Below are positions 23,621 through 24,380 of a stretch of 35,945 nucleotides of DNA, piece after piece. Every line of letters starts with the position of its first letter. Position 1 is the first letter of the stretch. Under the pieces are notes generated by a model. That model was not told the DNA's origin and made no database searches. It saw nothing but the letters and a program-made list of their open reading frames with translations. Both the position numbers and the translations under genes were made by a program. Source of the DNA: Polynucleobacter meluiroseus (GTDB lineage: Bacteria > Pseudomonadota > Gammaproteobacteria > Burkholderiales > Burkholderiaceae); contig CAMBBT010000004.1 in assembly GCA_945864455.1 (NCBI GenBank), positions 1 to 35,945 of the forward strand, given 5' to 3'.

Positions 23621-23955
23621 TGAGGTAAGCCTCAAGCGCATAGTCGGCTAAATAGGAGATTAGACGGTTGGATAGTTTAAGAAGTCAGCAAAATCAGACG
23701 CAAATCCGAAAACCCTTGCTCAAGGGTGTCTGGGCTATTCTCTCCATTTTTTCCAGCACATTTAAGAAGCCGTTGTCCTTCGGGGCCACGGCTTTTTTTC
23801 CAGGATTCATTAGCGTGCAGCACTTAGCATCAAGCCGCGCGCCGATGAATGGCTCGCTCGTCAAATCCAATCGGTTGCAAAATCAGGCGGAAATGAATGG
23901 TCGGGTCTTCTTAATCGTTAGTTCGTACTAATCCTCACGTGAAGGAGTAACACAC
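23621..23955. other. Non-coding interval between nrdB and the H1-like gene
   Basis: These 335 bases contain a small hairpin (ACCCTTG..CAAGGGT around 23712-23727, no T run), the nrdB terminator at 23767-23799, and the upstream region of the H1-like gene. I find no tRNA fold and no credible small gene. A frame opening at TTG 23668 runs straight through the terminator. Confidence 0.6.
23767..23799 (+). terminator. Rho-independent terminator after nrdB with UUCG tetraloop
   Basis: AAGCCGT pairs with ACGGCTT. After one mismatch, GTCC pairs with GGGC (one G-U) around the extra-stable cUUCGg tetraloop, then T7 (23793-23799). Confidence 0.88.
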
Positions 23956-24168
23956 ATGGCAACAAAGAAAAAACCTGCTGCAAAGAAACCAGCTGCTAAG
24001 AAATCAGCTGCTAAGAAGCGTCCAGCTGCTAAGAAGCGTCCAGCTGCTAAGAAGAAGCCTGCTGCTAAGAAGAAGCCTGCTGCTAAGAAGCGTCCAGCTG
24101 CTAAAAAGAAGCCAGCCGCTAAGAAGCGTCCAGCTGCTAAAAAGAAGCGCGTAGCTAAAAAAAAGTAA
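23956..24168 (+). CDS. Lys/Ala-rich histone H1-like DNA-binding protein (zero-frame product)
   Basis: Small, very basic, disordered nucleoid protein resembling eukaryotic H1 tails (HctB/H1-like family of Burkholderiales). It consists of KPAAK and KRPAAK repeats encoded by 15- and 18-base tandem units. AAGGAG lies 8 bases before ATG 23956. The zero-frame product is 70 residues, ending in RVAKKK at TAA 24166-24168, shorter than relatives. The characteristic C-terminus of the family is instead found in the -1 frame directly downstream. Codons in the repeats are strongly biased to GCT and AAG, fitting high expression. Its gene is monocistronic, between the nrdB terminator and its own terminator at 24313. 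Confidence 0.85.
   Translation: MATKKKPAAKKPAAKKSAAKKRPAAKKRPAAKKKPAAKKKPAAKKRPAAKKKPAAKKRPAAKKKRVAKKK
24159..24165 (+). promoter_or_regulatory. A AAA AAG slippery heptamer at the end of the H1-like zero frame
   Basis: In the reading frame the codons are AAA AAA AAG TAA, so A AAA AAG stands in the correct phase for -1 slippage, immediately before the stop. It is the same heptamer used in E. coli dnaX. It is part of an A8 run (24157-24164), which could also cause transcriptional slippage. Two mutually exclusive downstream stems exist: CCTGC/GCGGG (24174-24178 with 24189-24193, spacer 8) and a stronger GCGGGCT/AGCCCGC (24189-24195 with 24208-24214, spacer 23). No clear upstream Shine-Dalgarno-like stimulator is seen. 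Confidence 0.6.
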
Positions 24169-24281
24169 GTAAACCTGCTGCGAAGAAAGCGGGCTCTGCT
24201 GTAAAAAAGCCCGCGGCTAAGAAAGCTGCATCAGTAACAACTGCCGCTGCTTGGCCCTTCCCAACTGGCACTCGTCCTTAA
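24165..24281 (+). CDS. -1 frame C-terminal extension of the H1-like protein
   Basis: Read in the -1 frame from GTA 24165, this adds 38 residues: more KPAAKK repeats, then a non-repetitive end AAAWPFPTGTRP, and TAA at 24279-24281. A W-P-F-P-T-G-x-R-P type ending is, as I recall, the conserved tail of Burkholderiaceae H1-like proteins, so this is real coding sequence out of phase with its start. Frameshifting after codon 70 would give a protein of 108 residues. The transcription terminator lies after this second stop, not after the first. One extra A in the A8 run would restore a continuous frame. Programmed frameshift, transcriptional slippage, recent mutation and sequencing error all remain possible. 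Confidence 0.7.
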   Translation, partial: VSKPAAKKAGSAVKKPAAKKAASVTTAAAWPFPTGTRP

Positions 24282-24312: not shown

Positions 24313-24340
24313 AAAGGGGTCTCTATGAGACCCCTTTTTT
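24313..24340 (+). terminator. Rho-independent terminator after the H1-like gene
   Basis: AAAGGGGTCTC (24313-24323) pairs perfectly with GAGACCCCTTT (24327-24337) over a TAT loop and runs into T6 (24335-24340). It lies 32 bases after the -1 frame stop. The minus-strand PfkB gene ends at 24381, so it may serve that gene too. Confidence 0.9.
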
Positions 24341-24380
24341 ATTGCCTAAATTAGCTTGGCTCGCAATGAGCTCAATAAAC

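Follow-up and report, generated by a model that had tools for sequence, protein, structure and literature searches.

The H1-like gene downstream of nrdB in Polynucleobacter meluiroseus raises the question of how a reading frame can stop directly after a run of adenines while an intact coding tail continues in the -1 frame, and whether one gene may in this way give two nucleoid proteins. The window (the whole stretch of DNA analysed, 35,945 nucleotides) is contig C4 of a draft genome of 1.49 Mb in 147 contigs, and the elements of the gene described below lie on its + strand. By direct reading, a Shine-Dalgarno sequence, AAGGAG (23942..23947), is placed 8 nt 5' of the ATG at 23956. The zero-frame ORF (23956..24168) encodes the short product, a Lys/Ala/Pro-repeat H1-like protein of 70 aa, and closes with GCT AAA AAA AAG TAA after 70 codons. 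The candidate slip site is an A8-G sequence (24157..24165, with eight A at 24157-24164 followed by G24165), within which an A_AAA_AAG heptamer (24159-24165) is in phase for a -1 shift. The zero-frame stop TAA (24166..24168) is found 4 nt past the A run, and a second TAA (24170..24172), 8 nt past the run, closes the +1 frame. The -1-frame tail, VSKPAAKKAGSAVKKPAAKKAASVTTAAAWPFPTGTRP plus stop (24165..24281), runs from GTA at 24165 to CCT at 24278, with TAA at 24279-24281; its 38 codons (24165-24278), which contain, for example, the peptide AASVTTAAAWPFPTGTRP, end in WPFPTGTRP and would bring the long product to 108 aa. An intrinsic terminator-like hairpin, GGGGTCTC/GAGACCCC, with a T run (24316..24341, direct reading) follows the tail stop. 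The sequence-only reading of this DNA had described the zero-frame end after AAA AAA AAG, the 38-residue -1 continuation and a terminator 3' of the -1 stop, and all three are present with the coordinates and letters that it gave.

In the window the tail was rejected as a separate downstream gene, its frame having no ATG, GTG or TTG; these codons occur in the tail frame of many relatives, mostly as a TTG within ALNP, close to the C-terminus. The repeat part of the protein resembles NCBIfam NF038053 and Pfam HC2 (PF07382), below the cut-off for both; against NF038053, whose curated cut-off is 80 bits, the short product scores 15.2 bits and the fused gene of a relative (G033) 46.4 bits. The traits of NF038053-type proteins, namely Lys/Ala/Pro repeats, an AAAWPFPTG tail and a position downstream of nrdB, are present, and the repeats and tail are common to H1-like proteins of other genera. 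Positions 23722-23799 of the window bear a weak Rfam similarity to the Burkholderia sRNA BcKCsr2 (18.7 bits against a gathering score of 40) and overlap a terminator-like hairpin 3' of nrdB; the Rfam search gave no match above threshold.

The frame break across Polynucleobacter

When the tail was used as a query against 186 Polynucleobacter genomes, matches were obtained in 167, most of them in a short open frame of only 40-59 aa, which indicates that there, too, the tail is severed from the frame upstream of it. Loci from about 172 genomes were parsed, those with a frame break being referred to here as FS genomes, and the same break was found at the locus downstream of nrdB in about 140 of them, dozens of these closed; the named records that share it include P. 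alcilacus, P. necessarius and P. sinensis, and of the genomes fetched, 106 have nrdB identified upstream of the gene. In a run-length tally that takes in one outgroup genome and counts one genome twice, the break is associated with A9 in 129 genomes, with A8 in 9 (the window's clade, where the run is preceded by GCT in place of GCA), with a G-A10 substitution variant of the same frame in 1 and with A6 in 1 (G032); the tail is in the +1 frame in 2 genomes (G018 and G050), about 29 genomes are in-frame, and A10 is found in 14. This recurrence rules out a sequencing error or a lone lost A, the alternative that had been raised for the window. The sequence-only reading had also expected that nine A in the run of close strains would mean a continuous frame: nine A are indeed found in most relatives, yet the ninth is supplied by GCA in place of GCT and the frame remains broken.

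Over the tail of FS genomes, pN/pS is 0.13-0.48 with zero stops in the -1 frame, while the other two frames contain 2-3 stops with pN/pS of about 0.7 or more; only when read in the -1 frame does the tail show purifying selection. Its last nine residues, WPFPTG[TS]RP, are found in 123 of 127 FS genomes. Outside the genus, in Burkholderiales such as Cupriavidus, Noviherbaspirillum, Oxalicibacterium and Acidovorax, this C-terminus, whose ancestral pattern is (A/P)AAAWPFPTGTRP, ends one continuous frame, which on sequence comparison identifies the tail as the ancestral C-terminus of Burkholderiales H1-like proteins, now placed behind the break in most Polynucleobacter. When synonymous sites of the tail were compared with those of nrdB, variability at four-fold sites was lower after the slip site (0.07 versus 0.17), but the comparison draws on only 37 genomes, which is too small a sample to carry weight. 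These data bear on the reading in which the locus is a neutral relic or a sequencing artefact and the tail is untranslated: the region is repetitive and A-rich, and isolated further indels occur in a few draft genomes (G002, G053), but the same break in dozens of closed genomes, together with a tail that is intact and selected genus-wide, leaves this reading with next to no probability.

The candidate slip site and the possible slipping machines

Taking into consideration that (i) the break is genus-wide and (ii) the tail is selected in the -1 frame, the earlier proposal that one gene gives two nucleoid proteins by slippage is strongly supported. Our best explanation, to which we give a probability of roughly 85%, is that this is a conserved recoding site, where slippage on A8-A10 would split expression into a short and a long nucleoid protein. 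In this genome, the products would be a short basic protein of 70 aa, ending in AKKK, and a long protein of 108 aa with the ancestral C-terminus; the short form would be a purely basic repeat peptide, to which the long form would add the Burkholderiales H1-like C-terminus. Slippage could follow either of two routes: (a) at A_AAA_AAG the ribosome would let tRNA-Lys(UUU) leave AAA AAG and re-pair with AAA AAA, the overlapping codons of the -1 frame, or (b) RNA polymerase would yield mRNAs with one extra A (or two fewer), and either slipping machine would lead to the same protein pair. In A9-type species, including the window, where GCT leaves the run at A8, the default would be the short form and slippage would add the tail; in A10 species the default would be the long form, the short one arising from slippage. 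The isoform ratio would then be set co-transcriptionally or co-translationally. The sequences themselves show the break and its conservation, the selection on the tail and the conservation of the run and of both stops; that slippage takes place, how efficient it is and what each form does are our inferences.

The slip site of all 127 FS genomes contains a run of A8-A10, the longest A run elsewhere in the same ORFs being 5-7. The heptamer is in exact -1 phase in the window, as had been proposed, and wherever FS genomes have a complete zero frame (127 of 127) it closes with NNW AAA AAA AAG TAA. Elsewhere in these genes KKK is encoded by AAA AAA AAG or AAA AAA AAA in 0 of 410 cases, and the final KKK is preceded by GCA, which makes up 12-17% of Ala codons elsewhere, in 102 of 127 genomes. 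Counted over the two strands of the 1.49 Mb genome, A8G turns up only 20 times, which together with the recurrence of the break and tail in about 140 relatives speaks against chance. In every genome with at least 8 A (156/156), stops close both non-tail frames at exactly 4 and 8 nt beyond the run, despite variable following bases (GTAAGTAA, GTAGTTAA, GTAACTAA, GTAATTAA) and whichever frame is the default. A10 is retained in the in-frame clade, where the tail is in the default frame.

Several of these features are those expected from RNA-polymerase slippage on A8-A10, in which the tail would be read from mRNAs that have gained one A (or lost two); this version of the best explanation we hold at a little under even odds. 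Run length is conserved (A9 in 129 and A10 in 14 genomes), and bacterial slippage typically takes place on A9, nine being the common threshold (PMC1088944); both alternative frames are closed, as two-way slippage predicts, and in-frame species keep A10. Decay in the A6 genome G032 is a hint that run length matters: its site reads GCA AGA AAA AAG TAA GCA AG, the second stop is lost and the protein ends in WPSPTGTRP, the invariant Phe having changed to Ser. However, the window's clade has A8, which is under the usual threshold, and its tail is nevertheless intact.

That same A8 clade gives a hint in favor of the other version, in which programmed -1 frameshifting at A_AAA_AAG, stimulated by a hairpin downstream, would be the work of the ribosome alone; this version likewise falls somewhat short of an even chance. 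All FS genomes, those of the A8 clade and the A6 genome G032 among them, have the heptamer in phase, with a stop codon directly 3' of it. Only tRNA-Lys(UUU) would read the site, as it is the only tRNA-Lys found in G037, a 99%-complete relative in which 31 of the 38 tRNA hits were resolved in detail or nearly so, the remaining hits being 82-92 nt long, like Leu, Ser and Tyr tRNAs. On the other hand, the phase of the heptamer is automatic, because the break follows an A9 run in that frame, and a run of 9-10 A is longer than the heptamer requires; G032 has the heptamer in phase, yet shows the lost stop and the Phe to Ser change described above. Nor does the dnaX of this genus use the motif: in four Polynucleobacter genomes dnaX lacks an in-phase A_AAA_AAG and its A runs do not exceed 5, and it was rejected as a parallel slip site.

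Two alternative stems downstream of the heptamer had been pointed out, and both are present and mutually exclusive in the window. The near hairpin, CCUGCU-GCGAAGAA-AGCGGG (24174..24193), is the candidate stimulator; its stem, CCUGCU/AGCGGG, begins 8 nt past the heptamer and, at -8.3 to -9.4 kcal/mol, is not as weak as had been stated, though it is no stronger than synonymous recoding gives. In most relatives the near stem has 7-8 bp, begins 6-7 nt past the heptamer and reaches -13.3 kcal/mol; overall, most genomes have a downstream hairpin whose start is 6-12 nt away (-5 to -13 kcal/mol, with -8.3 in the window), within or near the spacing rule of 4-10 nt for frameshift hairpins (PMC4066793). 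Double compensatory changes, few overall, are observed in G098 for the far stem and between G121 and G124 for the near stem, and speak for the ribosomal route. Against it, hairpin strength shows no excess over synonymous recoding of the same peptide, the null being nearly as strong, and the near hairpin is a possible, not a proven, stimulator. The far hairpin, GCGGGC...GCCCGC (24189..24214), is conserved in the large clade and missing from the basal FS clades; the hairpins are not common to all FS clades, and RNAalifold found no convincing common structure among 118 unique sequences. The absence of an SD-like stimulator, also counted against a ribosomal site, extends from the window to all FS genomes examined, with 0 of 127 having one 6-17 nt upstream. 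An SD-like stimulator is not obligatory in the -1 programmed ribosomal frameshift class.

The original label of programmed -1 ribosomal frameshift has the conserved in-phase heptamer and the coding tail on its side, but it is not established; the conserved run length of 9-10, the closure of both non-tail frames and the in-frame A10 relatives fit polymerase slippage equally well or better. For the window, with its A8 run, we place ribosomal slippage slightly ahead of polymerase slippage; for the genus, the two are equally likely, and both may operate together.

Relation to known recoding systems

Few ordinary chromosomal genes of bacteria are subject to conserved recoding (dnaX, prfB, copA, chelatase genes). 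The slippage proposed here would add to these cases a nucleoid architectural protein of abundant freshwater bacteria, and its mechanism belongs with dnaX-type slippage. As far as it is described where cited in PMC1088944, the dnaX of Thermus thermophilus is similar in its A9 run, in the close stops in the other frames and in products that differ at the C-terminus; it differs in being another gene and in having a long default, where the Polynucleobacter A9 species have a short one. Within the genus, the A10 clade has the opposite default to the A9 species. E. coli dnaX and the IS3 family, such as IS911 (PMC4066793, PMC3711429), share the in-phase heptamer, tRNA-Lys(UUU) and a possible downstream hairpin, but the Polynucleobacter site has no SD-like stimulator and its run is lengthened to 8-10 A; moreover, the -1 product is the shorter one in E. 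coli dnaX and the longer one in Polynucleobacter. The H1-like proteins of Burkholderiales (NF038053; PF07382) have the same PAAKK-type repeats and AAAWPFPTG(T/S)(R/K)P C-terminus in one continuous frame, whereas most Polynucleobacter would need slippage to reach that C-terminus.

We found no report of this gene in the open-access literature, and it is absent from the main texts of PMC3711429 and PMC5009743; the search covered main texts, and an earlier listing in the supplements of the GeneTack study is possible. The gene, and the inverted defaults within one genus, appear to be new. In most species gene callers will report the tail-less short protein alone. The natural series of runs and frames (A10 in-frame, A9, A8, A7, A6) should make polymerase and ribosome slippage separable.

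History of the break and its departures

On the nrdB tree, an in-frame A10 genome (G052) is at the base, and FS genomes occur both in basal lineages and in a single large clade, with an A10 in-frame clade between them. The state changes number 9, versus about 25 for shuffled labels; some deep nodes are weakly supported, which allows more than one estimate of how often the break arose. None of about 140 FS genomes regained a continuous frame by a one-A insertion, despite the mutation-prone runs, which suggests that the arrangement of the frame break is maintained by selection. The same observations bear on phase variation at the DNA level, in which replication slippage would toggle the tail within populations. 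A9 and A10 tracts are typical of contingency tracts, and run length does vary between clades (A10, A9, A8, A7); however, such toggling predicts a mix of on and off states, and the lack of any one-A regain, together with the few changes on the tree, makes it very unlikely.

Within the large clade, the departures are single tips (G033, G182, G030, G018 and G050). G033 is in-frame with A7, G182 has its phase changed upstream and G030 is rearranged; a fused gene is tolerated in these in-frame relatives and in the G049/G054 clade, which counts against the slippage reading. In G018 and G050, A8 arose by deletion in a GCA context and moved the tail, still intact, to the +1 frame, which was also counted against slippage.

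The layout with stops in two frames and the tail in the third could be a phase-independent cassette, A8-A10 followed by GTA[AG][GCT]TAA, that sets the ratio of the two isoforms, single-base changes in the run having inverted the default between clades of the genus while both products were kept; we consider this somewhat better than an even bet. Because slippage would preserve both products, the loss of one base from the homopolymer could become fixed.

In the draft genome G053, an additional frame break was observed in the repeat region of the H1-like gene, possibly a pseudogene or an assembly error. G056 was set aside as an example of A6, as its A10 run is in-frame; directly after it comes another, shorter GCAAAAAAGTAG copy, at which the frame is broken in a different way, so that this draft genome seems to have duplicated the slip cassette locally.
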